A DNA stretch of 64,000 nucleotides from a candidate division KSB1 bacterium. Lineage in GTDB: Bacteria; Zhuqueibacterota; Zhuqueibacteria; Residuimicrobiales; Krinioviventaceae. Location of the stretch: assembly GCA_034521575.1 (NCBI GenBank), contig JAXHMJ010000005.1:2542001-2606000 (forward strand), in the 5' to 3' direction. Shown piece after piece: positions 35,116-64,000 of this stretch (position 1 is its first letter; every line of letters starts with the position of its first letter). The position numbers and the translations under genes were made by a program. The notes under the pieces are model-generated. The model ran no database searches. It worked only from the letters and a program-made list of their open reading frames with translations, and had not been told where the DNA came from.

Positions 35116-35179
35116 GTAGGATGGGTTTGTAACGAATTTTCATTAAACCCGGATAAACGTCATTACAAACCCATCCTAC
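35116..35179. repeat. RAYT-family hairpin at the 3' end of the dehydrogenase gene
   Basis: Arms GTAGGATGGGTTTGTAA (from 35116) and TTACAAACCCATCCTAC (35163-35179) with about 30 bases between. It is the same family as the hairpins around the RAYT gene at 63181-63684. On the minus strand the TAG within GTAGG is the stop codon of the dehydrogenase gene. Confidence 0.85.
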
Positions 35180-36093
35180 TCACAAATGGTAATTGCAACA
35201 TTGCCTCTCTTATGCCCCTGATCCACATAGCGGTGAGCCTCGACTATGTCATTCAGGGAATACGTCCGGTCCAGAACGGGCCTGAGTTTGTTCTGCTCGA
35301 TCAGGTCTTTGAGAAACAGCAGATCGTTTTCCGTCATTTTTTCAAGATGCGAATTATTGAGAAACACCCCGTTCGTTTTCAATATGGGTTTGCAGCGGCG
35401 GCGACTGGATTTCATCACAGCGTCATAGACCACATCGTATCGGTCGCCGGTTTTGGTAAAATCCTCACGGGTATAATCAATGACTTTATCCGCTCCCAGG
35501 GATAGAACCAGCTCAAAATTCCCGGCGCTGCACACTGCCGTGACATTGGCGCCATAATATTTGGCCAGCTGAATCGCATAGGTGCCGAGACTGCCGGAGG
35601 CGCCGTTGATGAGGATGCTTTGTCCCTTGCGGATATCGGCTTTTTGCAGGTTTTTCAATGCTGTCAGGGCGCCGGCCGGAACCGCAGGCCGCTTGTCGCA
35701 GGAGAGATTTCCGGGTTTCAGGGCAATCAGTCCGTTTCGTTCCGGATTTCCGTTTTTCACGGGCAGGCAGCGGTATTCGGCATATCCGCCCAGCCCGAAT
35801 CCGGTAAAGGCAAACACCGCATCTCCCGGTTTGAATGCGGCCACGTTGTTGCCGACGGATTCAATGATCCCGGCGATTTCCATGCCGGGAATCAGATTCT
35901 TTTTCGGTTTGAACAATCCAAAGGCCAGCCGCACCGGAAACGGATCGGCCCGGCGGATACGGGTGTCGCCGATATGGGCGGTGGCGGCGGCTGTTTTGAT
36001 CAATACTTCGTTGTTGTTCGGGACCGGTTTTTCCACCTGTGTGATTTTCAGGACATCCGGCGGACCGTAGCGGGCGCATATAACGGCTTTCAT
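35176..36093 (-). CDS. Zinc-independent MDR alcohol dehydrogenase/quinone oxidoreductase family protein
   Basis: 305 residues, cytoplasmic NAD(P)H-dependent oxidoreductase. MKAVICARYGPPDVLKI, PGMEIAGIIESVG, and the nucleotide-binding block ILINGASGSLGTYAIQLAKYYGA; no structural zinc cysteines. It ends VAITICE, and the stop TAG is supplied by the hairpin inserted at 35116-35179. The original C-terminus may have been slightly longer or different. The substrate is unknown; relatives reduce quinones or enones. Confidence 0.85.
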   Translation of the reverse strand: MKAVICARYGPPDVLKITQVEKPVPNNNEVLIKTAAATAHIGDTRIRRADPFPVRLAFGLFKPKKNLIPGMEIAGIIESVGNNVAAFKPGDAVFAFTGFGLGGYAEYRCLPVKNGNPERNGLIALKPGNLSCDKRPAVPAGALTALKNLQKADIRKGQSILINGASGSLGTYAIQLAKYYGANVTAVCSAGNFELVLSLGADKVIDYTREDFTKTGDRYDVVYDAVMKSSRRRCKPILKTNGVFLNNSHLEKMTENDLLFLKDLIEQNKLRPVLDRTYSLNDIVEAHRYVDQGHKRGNVAITICE

Positions 36094-56038: not shown

Positions 56039-58954
56039 ATGTCTGACGCCAAATCTAAAATTGCCGAGCTGGTTGAGAAATTTGACCGCAATCTAAGCGA
56101 GTACAAACACCCGAAATACAACGAAACCCAGATCCGGGTGGAATTTATCAATCCGTTCTGGGAGGCGCTGGGCTGGGACGTGAACAATCGCAGCGGCTAT
56201 GCCCTGTCGTTCAGGGATGTCATTCACGAGGACGACATCAAGGTGGGCGGCCACACCAAGGCGCCGGATTACTCATTCCGCATCGGCGGACGGCGTATCT
56301 TTTTCCTGGAAGCGAAAAAACCGTCCGTGGACCTGAAACACAATCCCGAACCGGCGTTTCAGCTGCGCCGCTACGCCTATTCCGCCAAACTGCCGGCGTC
56401 CATGCTGTCGGATTTTGAGGAACTGAGCATTTACGATACGCGCCTCAAACCCGCGATCACCGACAAGGCGCACACCGGCCGCATGCTGTATTATACGTTT
56501 CGCGACTATGCCGACAAATGGGACGAGATTGAAGCGGCCTTGTCCCGGGAAGCGGTGCTGCGCGGCGATTTCAACCGTTTTATCGAGGACAACCAGGCCA
56601 AACGTCCCGGCGCGGAACTGGACCGCGATTTTCTCAACAGCCTGGACGAGTGGCGCATGCTGCTGGCGCGCAATATCGCCCTGCGCAATCCGGATCTGTC
56701 GGAACGCGAGCTGAATTTCGGCGTGCAGATGACCCTGGACCGGCTCATCTTTTTGCGCATGGCCGAGGACCGCGGCATCGAGCCCTATGGCGCGCTGCAG
56801 TCGCTATTGAACGGCGAGAACAGCTATAAACGCCTGGTGGAGATTTATCATCACGCCGACGAGCGCTATAATTCCGGGTTGTTTCATTTTGACGACCGGG
56901 ACGGTGAACACCCGGATACCATCACGCCCGGTCTGCAGCTGGACGACAAGGTGCTCAAAGAGATTCTCAAAAACCTGTACTATCCCTGTCCCTACGAGTT
57001 CAGTCAGTTCCCGGTCGAGGTGATGGGGCACGCCTATGAGCAGTTTTTGGGCAAGCGCATCACCCTGACCGGCGGCCACCGCGCCCGCATCGAGGAAAAA
57101 CCCGAGGTGCGCAAGGCCGGCGGCGTCTATTACACACCGCAGTATATTGTCGATTATATCGTCGAGCACACCGTGGGCGAACTGCTCAAGGACAAAACCC
57201 CGCAGCAGGTCAGTGACCTGCGCATTGTCGATCCGGCCTGCGGCTCCGGATCGTTTCTGCTCGGCGCGTTTCAGTATCTCATGGACTGGCACCTGCAGGC
57301 CTATCAAGCCGAATACAAACGCACCGGAACGCTGCCGGGCCGTCCGGTGAACGGCAAACGGCCGCGCAAATCCGATCCCCAGGCCATCTTTCAGGGCGCG
57401 GAGGACGAGTGGTACCTGACCACAGCGGAGAAAAAACGCATTCTGCTGAACACGATTTACGGCGTGGACATTGACGCCAATGCCGTCGAAGTGACCAAAC
57501 TCAGTCTGCTGCTCAAGGTGCTGGAGCACGAAGACAGCGAAACCCTGAACCGCCAGCTCGGACTCTGGCACGAACGCGCCCTGCCGAACCTGGGCGACAA
57601 TATCAAATGCGGCAACTCGCTCATCGGCCCGGATTATTACGACAATCAACAGGGCAACATGTTTGATGAACAGGAACTGCTGCGCGTCAACGCGTTCGAC
57701 TGGGAAGCGGAATTTGCACACGTGTTTGAACAGGGCGGCTTTGATGCGGTGATTGGGAATCCGCCGTATGGGGCGATTTTTACTGAATCTGAAAAGGATT
57801 ATTTGTTAAACACTTTTCAGTCCTTTGAATATCAAATTAATAGTTTTGTATTTTTCCTTGAAACAGGTTTAAAATTGCTTTCAAAAAATCGTTTACTTTC
57901 ATACATAACACCTGCTGTTTTTCTCAATCAACACTATTTTGAAAAAATAAGAAAAGTTATTTTGGACGAATCTTGTATCAACAAAATATTAGTTTTGAAT
58001 TATAAAGTTTTTCAGGATGCAGATACGGGGGACACTGCTGTTTTCATTTTTGAAAAATCTGATGAGGAAAGTTTTGATGTCGAGTTTTCAAAAATGAGTA
58101 GCGCAAAAGCGTTTGAAAATATAAAATATGAAAAAGTTGCTCAGAGGACATTTTACCAAAATGAGAGATATGAATTTCAATTAAGATCAAATAATGATTT
58201 ATTCGAAAAGGCATACTTTAATTCTGTTTTGTTAGGTCATATCTCAAATTGTATCGTTGGTATAAAACCTTATCAGAAAAATAAGGGACAGCCAAAACAG
58301 ACAGCAAGTACTGTAAAAAACAGGATTTTCGATAGCGATGAAAAACGTGATGAGACATATAAACAATATATTGTTGGGAAAGATATTGATAGATATACAT
58401 TGAAGCCAATTGCGAAAAGATTTATTAGTTATGGAAAATGGCTTGCCGAACCTCGTTTTCCAGCGCCATTTGAACGAGAAAAGCTTGTTCTGAGGCAAAC
58501 TTCAGATAGAATTAGAGCCACATATGATTCAAATGGATTTTATAATCTGAATAATGTTTATAATATCGAAATGACTGATAAAAGATATAATCTCTTTTAT
58601 GTGCTTGGCATTATCAATTCGAAATTGATGGTATATCTATATCAGGAAATCGTCCCGGAAAAAGGGCGTGTTTTTGCAGAGATAAAAAAAGTAAATCTTA
58701 TCAAGATTCCCATCCGAAAAATAGATTTCGAAAATCCCAAAGACAAAGCCACCCACGACCGCCTCGTTGACCTCGTCCAGCACATGCTCGACCTGCACCG
58801 GCGCCTGTCCGCCGCCCGCGATCCGCGCACCCGCGAACAACTGCAGCGCCAAATCACCACCACGGACGGTCAGATTGATCGGTTGGTGTATGGGTTGTAC
58901 GGGTTGACGGAAGAGGAGGTGGGGATTGTGGAAAATAACGTCAAAAAAACATAA
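56039..58954 (+). CDS. Eco57I-like single-chain restriction-modification enzyme (type IIG/IIL)
   Basis: 971 residues combining nuclease, adenine methylase and target recognition. Residues 1-150 hold a PD-(D/E)xK nuclease (APDYSFRI ... FLEAKKPS). The methylase has motif I DPACGSGSFLLGA near 398 and motif IV IGNPPYG near 575. The recognition domain spans about 580-900, followed by a conserved helical C-terminus (HMLDLHRRLSAARDPRTREQ). The stretch coding for the recognition domain (about 57775-58735) is plainly AT-rich while both sides are GC-rich, as if it had been swapped. One polypeptide would methylate one strand and cut; specificity unknown. It is intact. Confidence 0.88.
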   Translation: MSDAKSKIAELVEKFDRNLSEYKHPKYNETQIRVEFINPFWEALGWDVNNRSGYALSFRDVIHEDDIKVGGHTKAPDYSFRIGGRRIFFLEAKKPSVDLKHNPEPAFQLRRYAYSAKLPASMLSDFEELSIYDTRLKPAITDKAHTGRMLYYTFRDYADKWDEIEAALSREAVLRGDFNRFIEDNQAKRPGAELDRDFLNSLDEWRMLLARNIALRNPDLSERELNFGVQMTLDRLIFLRMAEDRGIEPYGALQSLLNGENSYKRLVEIYHHADERYNSGLFHFDDRDGEHPDTITPGLQLDDKVLKEILKNLYYPCPYEFSQFPVEVMGHAYEQFLGKRITLTGGHRARIEEKPEVRKAGGVYYTPQYIVDYIVEHTVGELLKDKTPQQVSDLRIVDPACGSGSFLLGAFQYLMDWHLQAYQAEYKRTGTLPGRPVNGKRPRKSDPQAIFQGAEDEWYLTTAEKKRILLNTIYGVDIDANAVEVTKLSLLLKVLEHEDSETLNRQLGLWHERALPNLGDNIKCGNSLIGPDYYDNQQGNMFDEQELLRVNAFDWEAEFAHVFEQGGFDAVIGNPPYGAIFTESEKDYLLNTFQSFEYQINSFVFFLETGLKLLSKNRLLSYITPAVFLNQHYFEKIRKVILDESCINKILVLNYKVFQDADTGDTAVFIFEKSDEESFDVEFSKMSSAKAFENIKYEKVAQRTFYQNERYEFQLRSNNDLFEKAYFNSVLLGHISNCIVGIKPYQKNKGQPKQTASTVKNRIFDSDEKRDETYKQYIVGKDIDRYTLKPIAKRFISYGKWLAEPRFPAPFEREKLVLRQTSDRIRATYDSNGFYNLNNVYNIEMTDKRYNLFYVLGIINSKLMVYLYQEIVPEKGRVFAEIKKVNLIKIPIRKIDFENPKDKATHDRLVDLVQHMLDLHRRLSAARDPRTREQLQRQITTTDGQIDRLVYGLYGLTEEEVGIVENNVKKT

Positions 58955-59747
58955 ACCACAGATGTCAGATCGTCCGGGATATCGATCCCGGACGGGCGCT
59001 GATTGGAGACATCCGTCTCCAGCCTCCTTGCCTGGAGTGCCGCGTTTAGCCATTACGGTCTATCTTTGATTTTCGGGCAGTCGTGCAGTGACGCCGGCTC
59101 AGATGCTGCGGCTCATCTGTGCGGCATGCGGGACAGATGTCCCGGTTCATTGTACACCCCGGATGGATATCCGGGGCGATCTGTTTTGGTGAAAAGTCAC
59201 CGCGAAACCGAAAATATTTACCCTTCTGGGCATAAGTAACAAAGTGAGTTCGACCTGCACCGGCGCCAAAGCGCCGCCCGCGATCCGCGCACCCGCGAAC
59301 AACTGCAGCGCCAAATTACCACCACGGACGCTCAGATTGACCGGCTGGTGTATGGGTTGTACGGGTTGACGGAAGAGGAGGTGGGGATTGTGGAAAATAA
59401 CGTCAAAAAAACATAAACCACAGATGTCAGATCGTCTGGGATAACGATCCCGGGCGGGCGCTGATTGGAGACATCCGTCTCCAGCCCCCTTGCCTGGAGT
59501 GCCGCGTTTAGCCATTACGGTCTATCTTTGATTTTCGGGCAGTCGTGCAGTGACACCGACTCAGATGCTTCGGCTCATCTGTGCTGCATGCGGGACAGAT
59601 GTCCCGGTTCATTGTACACCCCGGATGGATATCCGGGGCGATCTGTTTTGGTGAAAAGTCACCGCGAAACCGAAAATATTTACCCTTCTGGGCATAAGTA
59701 ACAAAGTGAGTTCGACCTGCACCGGCGTCTGTCCGGCCGCCCGCTGA
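58788..59747 (+). repeat. 462-bp tandem duplication of the restriction-modification gene 3' end
   Basis: The phrase TCGACCTGCACCGGCG starts at 58788, 59250 and 59712, an exact period of 462. Unit 1 holds the last 55 codons of the enzyme, its stop and about 290 bases of downstream DNA. Unit 2 repeats all of it with a few changes (including a different junction, GCCAAAGCGCC). Unit 3 stops after about 36 bases. The second copy of the C-terminus has no start and is presumably silent. Confidence 0.92.
59712..59731 (+). repeat. 20-bp direct repeat, left of the DarTG module
   Basis: TCGACCTGCACCGGCGTCTG, identical to 63034-63053. It is the start of unit 3 of the tandem duplication. Both copies carry GTCTG where the gene itself has GCCTG. 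Confidence 0.8.
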
Positions 59748-59791
59748 ATTTGTGCCCATATGATAAATACGGTTTCACGAACCCACCCGAC
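59745..59791. repeat. Half of a RAYT-family element
   Basis: TTTGTGCCCATATGATAAATA and CACGAACCCACCCGAC match the loop and right arm of the complete element after the RAYT gene (63750-63793); the left arm is missing. It sits between the tandem duplication and darT. Confidence 0.7.
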
Positions 59792-60263: not shown

Positions 60264-61554
60264 CCGGTTAGGTTTTTGCACGTAAGTAATTTCGTCGATT
60301 TTTTCGATGAGATTTTCTACGATTTTTCTTGTCGGAATCTCGCACTTCATTTTGAATTTGAATACGGAGTTCTCGCACTCTTTCGATGTTAACTTTTTCG
60401 TTATAATTTTCATGACAATAGATTGCCAGTAGCAAATATGTAATGAGGCCGCCGAGAATTTGAACCATAAGTCCGTACTGACTTCGAGCTATGAGATGAT
60501 AGACTTTGAGATGGCGTTTCCACCAAGCGAAGAAATTTTCAATTTCCCAACGAAGTTTGTATGCCTGAGCAACATCTTCTGCAGAGAGGTCATAACGATT
60601 TGTCGCGATCCAGTATTTTACATTGCCGATTTTATAACCGACAAGTCGTATCGACTTTTTTGTTTGATTGGTGCCCGGCGTCCCCAATAAAACTATAGCA
60701 TCATAAAAAACAATGCTTTCTGGTTTTATGTCATGTGCATAAAGACATTTTTTTTCGTCGATGCTTTGATGCGGCAGAAAAATTGACGACCGTCCTCCTG
60801 CCATTGGTCAAAGCGTTTATGGCATTGATAGCCCCGATCAAGAACGCCGGACTGGTCAGAAGAGAGTATTTGATCGACAAATGGTCGTTCACCGGCTAAA
60901 CCGCCTGTGAGATATAGTTTTGTTGGAATGGACCGATTAATATCAAAACCGAGATGAACTTTTGCCTTTTTAGAGCCGTTTCTATAATCAGCCCAAGTCA
61001 TTGAAAGAACAGCATCAATCAAAGAACCGTCGATGGCAACAAGCTCCCCCAAATGTTCAAATTGCTTTGGGATAGTGGTCGCAGCTTTGGCTTGAAGTTC
61101 ATTAAAAACAACAGCTAGTTGTTCGAGGCCGCGATTGTTGATAGCCTCAAAAAAGCTACTTTTTTTGATTCCTTCTTTCGGGCAATATGCTCCCGAGCAA
61201 ATGTATCTTCTTGAAGAACCTGGACAAGATGAGTCCCTGATTCATGCTCTTCAAGATGATAAAACACGAGGGCATTGAGTTGATCTTCAAATGTCATTTG
61301 CAGAGGTCGATCTCCTCGTGAAACTAATGGTGGTACCTTGGACAAGATAGCCTTGATCGGTTCCATTAGTCTTTTGAATGTTTTAGATTTTTGTCGAGGC
61401 TTAAACTTTTTGAATTTACGTCGCATTTCCATAACACCTTATATTTATTAATGTTATGAAAATCGACTTCAAAATTTTTGACGTAATGTCAAGTGTTTTT
61501 TTGTGTTATGTCATATTTTTTTGTATAATCTGAGCGTTGCAATTACCTAACCGG
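60264..61554 (-). mobile_element. IS4-family insertion sequence (1291 bp) inside darT
   Basis: Inverted ends CCGGTTAGGTTTTTGCACG (left) and CCGGTTAGGTAATTGCAAC (right, read inward) match at about 15 of 19 positions. ACGT flanks both ends (60260-60263, 61555-61558), a probable 4-bp target duplication within the palindromic site TAACGTTA. The transposase stop codon lies inside the left terminal repeat. Confidence 0.85.
60268..61432 (-). CDS. IS4-family DDE transposase (two frameshifts)
   Basis: Three overlapping frames give one product: an N-terminal block (KIDEL-like MRRKFKKFKPRQKSKTFKRL, FEDQLNALVFYHLEEHESG), first catalytic Asp in LVAIDGSLIDAVLSM, second Asp in GVLDRGYQCHKRFD, and Glu in the family signature YKLRWEIENFFAWWKRHLK, which fits the Y-(2)-R-(3)-E-(6)-K pattern of IS4 elements. 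Shifts lie near 61100 and 60780. Joined length about 385 residues. Probably inactive if the shifts are real. Confidence 0.85.
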
Positions 61555-62859: not shown

Positions 62860-63033
62860 ATACTTGTAATCGGGGCAAGTTTTACATAACCTTTTTATAG
62901 AGTAAAATTACGTAACGGATATGTAACAATAAAACTGCAGAACCGGCAGCATATACCATATATAGGCGAATGATTGATTTTTATTCAATATTTTCCAGGT
63001 AAAATGATTGAAATATGTAACAGCATATTGATT

Positions 63034-63080
63034 TCGACCTGCACCGGCGTCTGGCCTGGTGTATGGGTTGTACGGGTTGA
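63034..63080 (+). repeat. 20-bp direct repeat and restriction-gene scrap, right of the DarTG module
   Basis: 63034-63053 equals 59712-59731. It is followed by CTGGTGTATGGGTTGTACGG, another piece of the enzyme's C-terminal coding sequence, with about 100 bases between the two pieces deleted. The first RAYT hairpin starts directly after. Confidence 0.8.
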
Positions 63081-63084
63081 CAGA

Positions 63085-63148
63085 GTAGGTGGGTTCGTAA
63101 TCCAGGATTTTCCATGTTTAAAGAAAATTCGTTACGAACCCACCCTAC
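63085..63148. repeat. RAYT hairpin, upstream
   Basis: Arms GTAGGTGGGTTCGTAA (63085-63100) and TTACGAACCCACCCTAC (63132-63148), one-base bulge, loop about 31 bases. It lies 33 bases before the RAYT start codon. Confidence 0.9.
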
Positions 63149-63180: not shown

Positions 63181-63684
63181 ATGTCCAATTATCGAAGGTA
63201 TTACGTGCCGGGCGGCACTTTTTTTATTACATTGGTCACGCACAAACGCAAACCGATTTTGACATCAGATCTCGCCCGGACCTGTCTGAGGCGGGCCTGG
63301 CGAATTGAACAATCCCGACGTCCGTTTAAAATCGTGGCTTTTTGTCTGTTGCCGGATCATCTGCATGTCATGATGACACTTCCGGCGCATGATGCGGATT
63401 TTTCAACCCGTGTTCGAAATATAAAACTGCGCTTTACCCGGTCTTTTCTCAAGAACGGCGGTGATGAGAGTGCCGTAACAGCATCGAAAATTCGTCACAG
63501 GGAACGCGGGGTGTGGCAGCGCCGGTTTTGGGAACACTGCATCCGTGATGACCGGGATTTTGAAAATCATTTGCATTATATTCATTACAATCCCGTCAAA
63601 CACAGTCTTGTCAAAAGCGCTGTTTTGTGGCCGTATTCAACCTTTCACCGGTATGTAAAAATGGGTTGGTATGAAAAAGATTGA
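63181..63684 (+). CDS. REP-associated tyrosine transposase (RAYT, TnpA-REP)
   Basis: 167 residues from ATG 63181 after AAGGGGG. Y1 HUH-type transposase: YVPGGTFFITLVTHKRKPIL, the metal-binding HUH motif within LLPDHLHVMMTLP, GVWQRRFWEHCIRDDRDFENHLHYIHYNPVKHSLV with the catalytic Tyr in the last block, and WPYSTFHRYV. It lies between two hairpins with matching arms, the usual arrangement in which the RAYT moves or tends dispersed palindromes. Intact. Confidence 0.92.
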   Translation: MSNYRRYYVPGGTFFITLVTHKRKPILTSDLARTCLRRAWRIEQSRRPFKIVAFCLLPDHLHVMMTLPAHDADFSTRVRNIKLRFTRSFLKNGGDESAVTASKIRHRERGVWQRRFWEHCIRDDRDFENHLHYIHYNPVKHSLVKSAVLWPYSTFHRYVKMGWYEKD

Positions 63685-63728: not shown

Positions 63729-63793
63729 GTAGGTGGGTTCGTGCTGCTGATTTGTGCCCATATGATAGATATGGTAGTACGAACCCACCCTAC
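63729..63793. repeat. RAYT hairpin, downstream
   Basis: Arms GTAGGTGGGTTCGT (63729-63742) and ACGAACCCACCCTAC (63779-63793) around a loop with GATTTGTGCCCATATGATAG. On the minus strand its TAG is the stop codon of the next gene. Confidence 0.9.
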
Positions 63794-64000
63794 CTTGCCA
63801 ACACCATTTTCCCGGTCCGCACCTCATCGTCCGCCTGCAGGCGGTACAGGTACACGCCGCTGGCCTGTCCGCGGCCGTCAAATTCGATCTGATGCGGTCC
63901 GGCGGACTGTACCGCGTTCACCAGTGCAGCGACGCGGCGGCCGCGGATGTCAAAGACCTGCAGCTGTACGCGGCCGCCGCGGTTCAGGCTGTAGCGAATG
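63790..64000 (-). CDS. C-terminal sorting domain of a secreted protein (partial)
   Basis: 70 residues of a gene that extends beyond the window: SLNRGGRVQLQVFDIRGRRV, ALVNAVQSAGPHQIEFDGRG, ASGVYLYRLQADDEVRTGKM and VLAR then TAG. This is the FlgD-like or type IX sorting domain seen in the protease and DUF1566 proteins. GC content is high. The stop codon comes from the RAYT hairpin at 63729-63793. Confidence 0.8.
   Translation of the reverse strand, partial: IRYSLNRGGRVQLQVFDIRGRRVAALVNAVQSAGPHQIEFDGRGQASGVYLYRLQADDEVRTGKMVLAR

Follow-up and report, generated by a model that had tools for sequence, protein, structure and literature searches.

Why should the stop codon of a gene lie inside the end of a repeated hairpin? 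The question is raised by the right end of a 64,000-nucleotide stretch of DNA from a candidate division KSB1 bacterium (hereafter the window), where a gene whose product carries a CBM35 module and a C-terminal sorting domain is closed by a TAG that also belongs to the neighbouring hairpin. The first-pass annotation had read this end as GTG TTG GCA AGG TAG running into the hairpin arm, and this reading is correct: the minus strand from 63790 to 63846 translates as YRLQADDEVRTGKMVLAR followed by the stop, and the TAG lies within GTAGGGTGGGTTCGT (63779-63793), in the outer tetranucleotide GTAG of the hairpin. The gene extends beyond the window, and the tail of its product matches Por_Secre_tail / TIGR04183 nearly to the profile end in a profile search.

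63790-64000, minus strand: 3' end of the gene for a protein with CBM35 and a C-terminal sorting domain (708 aa at full length in the genome; extends to G000:C5:2607916)
63790-63792, minus strand: stop codon TAG of this gene, inside the GTAG tag of hairpin H3
63730-63793, unstranded: hairpin H3 (GTAGGTGGGTTCGT ... ACGAACCCACCCTAC), with GTAG at both outer ends and a loop of about 30 nt; right border of a REP-RAYT-REP unit

The proposal that the hairpin belongs to a family is supported. Pattern and covariance-model searches, on which the genome-wide hairpin counts are based, yielded nine complete hairpins with arms in common (the complete ones by covariance model) and two half copies in 5.26 Mb. 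The half copies (at 59.8 kb in the window and at C5:1886.8k) were recognised by arm and loop, and their covariance-model scores are weak. GTAG, or a one-base variant of it, is present at most ends of the nine copies, and the loop GTAACGAATKTTCATCAAACCYGGATAAA is common to five of them, in one orientation. The six arm matches counted in the window were reached in none of 100 shuffles (mean 0.89), and the arm is thus not a product of chance. The hairpins fold stably as RNA, with energies of -28 to -34 kcal/mol and z values of -5.6 to -7.0. Three further members lie in the window.

63085-63148, unstranded: hairpin H2, which borders the REP-RAYT-REP unit on the left; a methylase-tail fragment ends at its left TAG
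35116-35179, unstranded: hairpin H1, a solitary family copy; the loop GTAACGAATTTTC(A/T)TTAAAC is common to H1 and H2
59752-59791, unstranded: half copy, with only the right arm and an H3-type loop; the loop TTTGTGCCCATATGATARATA is common with H3

What H2 and H3 enclose points to the origin of the family, since the two hairpins border on both sides, as in a REPtron, a gene for a REP-associated tyrosine transposase (RAYT).

63181-63684, plus strand: RAYT gene (167 aa from ATG), with the HuH motif PDHLH and a candidate catalytic tyrosine in YIHYNPVKH

This open reading frame scores 183.5 bits against NCBIfam NF047646 (REP_Tyr_transpos; cut-off 80) and also matches Y1_Tnp. Over residues 1-165 it aligns to the E. 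coli TnpA-REP (PDB 4er8) with E = 3e-35, PDHLH falling on PEHMH and YIHYNPVKH on YIYINPVKH, so that both the HuH motif and the tyrosine are found in place. Of the genes in this genome, it alone was shown to be a RAYT; six other Y1_Tnp matches were without a family arm within 1.5 kb.

RAYTs 46-59% identical to that of the window were found in Methylomonas (Methylococcales), Planctomycetota, Chloroflexota, Cyanobacteria and others. Many of the relatives examined have palindromes of the GTAGGGTGGG / GTAGGGTGCG type at their flanks, either alone or as spaced inverted pairs, and relatives from the same class carry GTAGGTTGGGTTCGTTTTTTGAACCCAACA at the RAYT borders, several of them in one genome, G040. 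At the borders of two relatives' RAYTs (L050 and L052) the GTAG hairpin was not found. Taken together, the relatives and G040, with their GTAG border palindromes, place the window hairpins among the GTAG-REPs, as a form with a long loop and two tags. As in a REP, the palindrome has GTAG at its 5' border; however, REPs have an unpaired GTAG and a short loop (2-20 nt), whereas here GTAG pairs with CTAC at the other end across a loop of about 30 nt, a layout closer to that of two REPs placed head to head around a 30-nt spacer than to a single REP. The copy number (9 complete and 2 half copies) is below the tens to hundreds per genome expected of REPs; small GTAG-REP families have also been described (PMC3733652). 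We note that the left and right arms of H2 and of H3 differ alike (GTAGG-TGGG versus GTAGGGTGGG), and that the identical one-base asymmetry is seen in the RAYT-border repeats of Methylomonas and Brasilonema (L080 and L101).

The first-pass annotation had also suggested that the TAG of the hairpin took the place of a native stop, which is very probable. A paralogue of the sorting-domain gene, 78% identical, is present in the same genome (C5:2414826-2415083; locus L218) and ends TTG GCA AGG TGA, that is, in TTGGCAAGG TGA / GGTGTTGGCAAGG TGA, with the same last codon as the window gene. The two genes match in DNA as far as the edge of the hairpin, where the identity stops. When the sequence past the element was compared, in search of an empty site, with the DNA that follows the paralogue, no match was obtained. 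Since the TGA paralogue is a different locus and not the empty site of H3, we infer the replacement event from the comparison of the two genes: H3 apparently replaced the stop at the native codon, with no residues lost. The pair thus offers a clear case in which a mobile repeat seems to have taken the place of a stop codon while leaving the protein unaltered.

Genes stopped by such a TAG in other genomes were compared with their family profiles. HtpG (614/614), SthA (462/464) and HycI (145/146) reach or nearly reach the profile end, which indicates proteins without truncation and TAGs at native ends. A companion case in the window, put forward in the first-pass annotation, was confirmed at hairpin H1.

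35176-36093, minus strand: gene for a zinc-type alcohol dehydrogenase (305 aa), whose stop is the TAG of H1

This protein ends two residues past its conserved tail; homologues end 0-26 residues past it.

How often does a hairpin supply the stop? The statement that two of three complete hairpins end a gene in this manner holds inside the window but not genome-wide, where a complete gene is stopped by the hairpin TAG in two of the nine (2 of about 20 ends). A third hairpin end in the genome closes a gene fragment: the left-end TAG of H2 (63086-63088) terminates in frame a duplicated methylase tail that ends VYGLYGLTE. Other copies in the genome sit 7 or 17 nt past the stop of a gene, and at several no gene runs into either end. 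An 85-codon open reading frame stopping at the hairpin at C5:1890k, with a TAG that overlaps the tag at -2, was left out of the count as apparently spurious.

The surroundings of these copies show further features. Extra partial copies of the 3' end of the Eco57I/TaqI_C-type methylase gene, together with the repeat that follows it, lie at 58760-58951, 59240-59430 and 63020-63088; the last of them is cut by H2. Between the methylase and a macro-domain gene lies a broken DDE transposase (60268-61432; a PF01609 piece and unmatched open reading frames on the same strand), which marks the region as a site of past rearrangement. Elsewhere in the genome, the family hairpin G000:C5:783434-783504 is found 17 nt past a gene with a sorting-domain-like end (...TRKMLLMR, stop TGA).

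Loci of RAYT relatives in other genomes allowed these frequencies to be assessed on a larger set, in which genes were called simply as open reading frames, loci were chosen for the presence of a RAYT, and heads are not independent of each other. There, 331 GTAG heads were counted in 80 of 109 loci, and 13 of them (3.9%) provide the stop of a called gene, the RAYTs themselves accounting for four of the 13. At this rate, the chance of at least 2 among 20 ends is about 0.18 by our own arithmetic. Stops located 3-14 nt upstream of heads number 34, against 12.3 +/- 3.6 expected under random intergenic placement (300 simulations, maximum 23). Most gene-adjacent heads follow 4-9 nt after a stop codon of the gene itself; these codons comprise 15 TAA, 11 TAG and 8 TGA. 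Exact overlap of the TAG with a stop amounts to 13/253 (5.1%), as compared to 57/686 (8.3%) for ordinary GTAGs outside genes (p = 0.12). Thus, the crowding of REPs just behind gene ends, which exceeds all simulations, is real, whereas exact stop overlap, not enriched over ordinary GTAGs outside genes, is no separate signal.

Two other treatments of the same heads lean the other way. The 13 exact overlaps exceed the roughly 4.8 stops per position at -4 to -9 (Poisson p = 0.0015, in a test picked post hoc). Among open reading frames that run into heads, 13 of 29 do so in the TAG frame (p = 0.13, raw); removal by eye of spurious-looking frames gives 13/17 (p = 0.0003), a figure too subjective to be relied upon. 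The first-pass annotation had regarded stop overlap as a signal that would have to be dropped if its genome-wide frequency were no higher than expected; with 2 of about 20 ends here, 13/331 elsewhere and a rate no higher than that of ordinary GTAGs, it is dropped. Of its suggestion that insertion is targeted to gene ends, or that selection keeps such copies, the preferential position behind gene ends stands and stop-specific targeting does not; that position fits either targeting of gene ends or selective removal of harmful insertions.

Why, then, TAG? GTAG is the conserved tag of REPs and a recognition element for TnpA-REP (PMC8266576). Since every REP begins with GTAG, every copy offers a TAG stop to genes where it lands. 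Of the three frames in which a coding sequence can run into the tag, one contains this TAG, and another contains TAA if the arm has the sequence GTTCGTAA. The first-pass interpretation was right as to the hairpin family and the replaced stop; it missed the cause, that the TAG is part of a tag that a RAYT would recognise. In our view the hairpins are, with high probability, REP-type repeats spread by the RAYT at 63181-63684, and the stop overlap is a by-product of a TAG-containing tag together with tolerance at gene ends, not of stop-codon targeting.

In this scheme, the RAYT encoded between H2 and H3 would most likely work on single-stranded DNA, as RAYTs do, and spread the repeats as single strands, recognising the GTAG tag beside the hairpin, as is known for E. 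coli TnpA-REP. A selective filter would then act on the products: copies inside genes would be lost, and survivors would be mostly intergenic, especially just behind gene 3' ends. A copy that arrived at the last codon, and in the one frame of three that reads its TAG, would provide the new stop without loss of a residue and would be tolerated. Such tolerance or selection at gene ends suffices, and the data contain no evidence of stop-codon-specific targeting; a preference of the RAYT for gene ends, for example for single-stranded DNA behind transcribed genes, is possible. The CTAC-paired GTAG, which is unpaired in E. coli REPs, and the low copy number (9 + 2) count against this explanation. 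If it is right, a puzzling-looking coincidence follows from a simple rule, that the tag read by the transposase contains TAG.

The position behind genes could also reflect host use, the hairpins being kept as transcription terminators or as stabilisers of mRNA 3' ends. They are indeed stable and lie directly behind genes, and a REP at a distance of up to 15 nt from a stop reduces translation in E. coli (work reviewed in PMC12306157). However, the T-run is absent after the hairpins, which are therefore not classical intrinsic terminators, the 5.26 Mb contain only nine complete copies, which are tied to a transposase, and at several of these neither end is reached by a gene. We thus consider retention for such a role unlikely, and a secondary effect of the hairpins on expression possible.

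Insertion aimed at stop codons themselves appears about as unlikely. Here a pre-existing GTAG, made of a last codon ending in G and a TAG stop, would be the target, becoming part of the border of the element like the fixed tetranucleotide of IS200/IS605. IS200/IS605 elements, whose transposases are relatives of RAYTs, have a target-site motif as their left flank, and the post hoc excess of exact overlaps over neighbouring positions is in keeping with this model. However, the closest hairpin-free sequence, the sorting-domain paralogue, ends in TGA and not TAG; most gene-adjacent heads lie past stops of mixed identity; and REP heads are no more often gene stops than other GTAGs outside genes. 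That RAYT-driven insertion recognises a G-ending last codon plus TAG, in which case the transposase would use stop codons as landing sites, is very doubtful. Finally, that the hairpins are MITEs of a transposon unrelated to the RAYT, one whose terminal inverted repeats are long, and that the adjoining RAYT is coincidental, is highly improbable: the 13-15 bp arms and 30-nt loop do resemble short inverted-repeat elements, but two copies border the one RAYT while the other Y1_Tnp matches lack the arm within 1.5 kb, GTAG is part of the arms, and arms of this kind also border RAYTs elsewhere.

The reading of the hairpins as RAYT-spread REPs can be set against known systems. In G040, short REPs (GTAGGTTGGGTTCG-loop-GAACCCAACA) carry the same tag and nearly the same arm as the window hairpins and likewise border RAYT genes, but their loop is only a few nt long and the REP-RAYT-REP units occur in several copies. 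Six contigs of this genome (C32, C75, C95, C142, C164 and C246) hold several RAYT genes or remnants bounded by REPs, in an IS-like manner, and two REP pairs only about 230 bp apart are MITE-like. RAYTs are usually regarded as single-copy.

E. coli TnpA-REP (RayT, 4er8) and the Y and Z REPs (PMC8266576) share with the present system a full-length transposase match, the HuH motif and a GTAG beside the hairpin; the E. coli REPs differ from the window hairpins in their short loop, bulged stem and unpaired GTAG, which is present on a single side, 5' of the stem. Closest to our observations are the GTAG-REPs and REPtrons (Nunvar et al. 2010, PMC2817692; Di Nocera et al. 2013, PMC3733652), in which a RAYT is bordered by inverted GTAG palindromes with solitary copies elsewhere, and copies lie at gene 3' ends where the TAG of the tag is the stop of flanking ORFs. 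The use of GTAG-REP ends as TAG stops, frequent in other bacteria, has thus already been described (Di Nocera et al. 2013, PMC3733652). With GTAG at both outer ends, paired to CTAC, a 30-nt loop and few copies, the window hairpins differ from the REPs of those reports, and the locus adds a REPtron with an unusual, long-loop and doubly tagged repeat.
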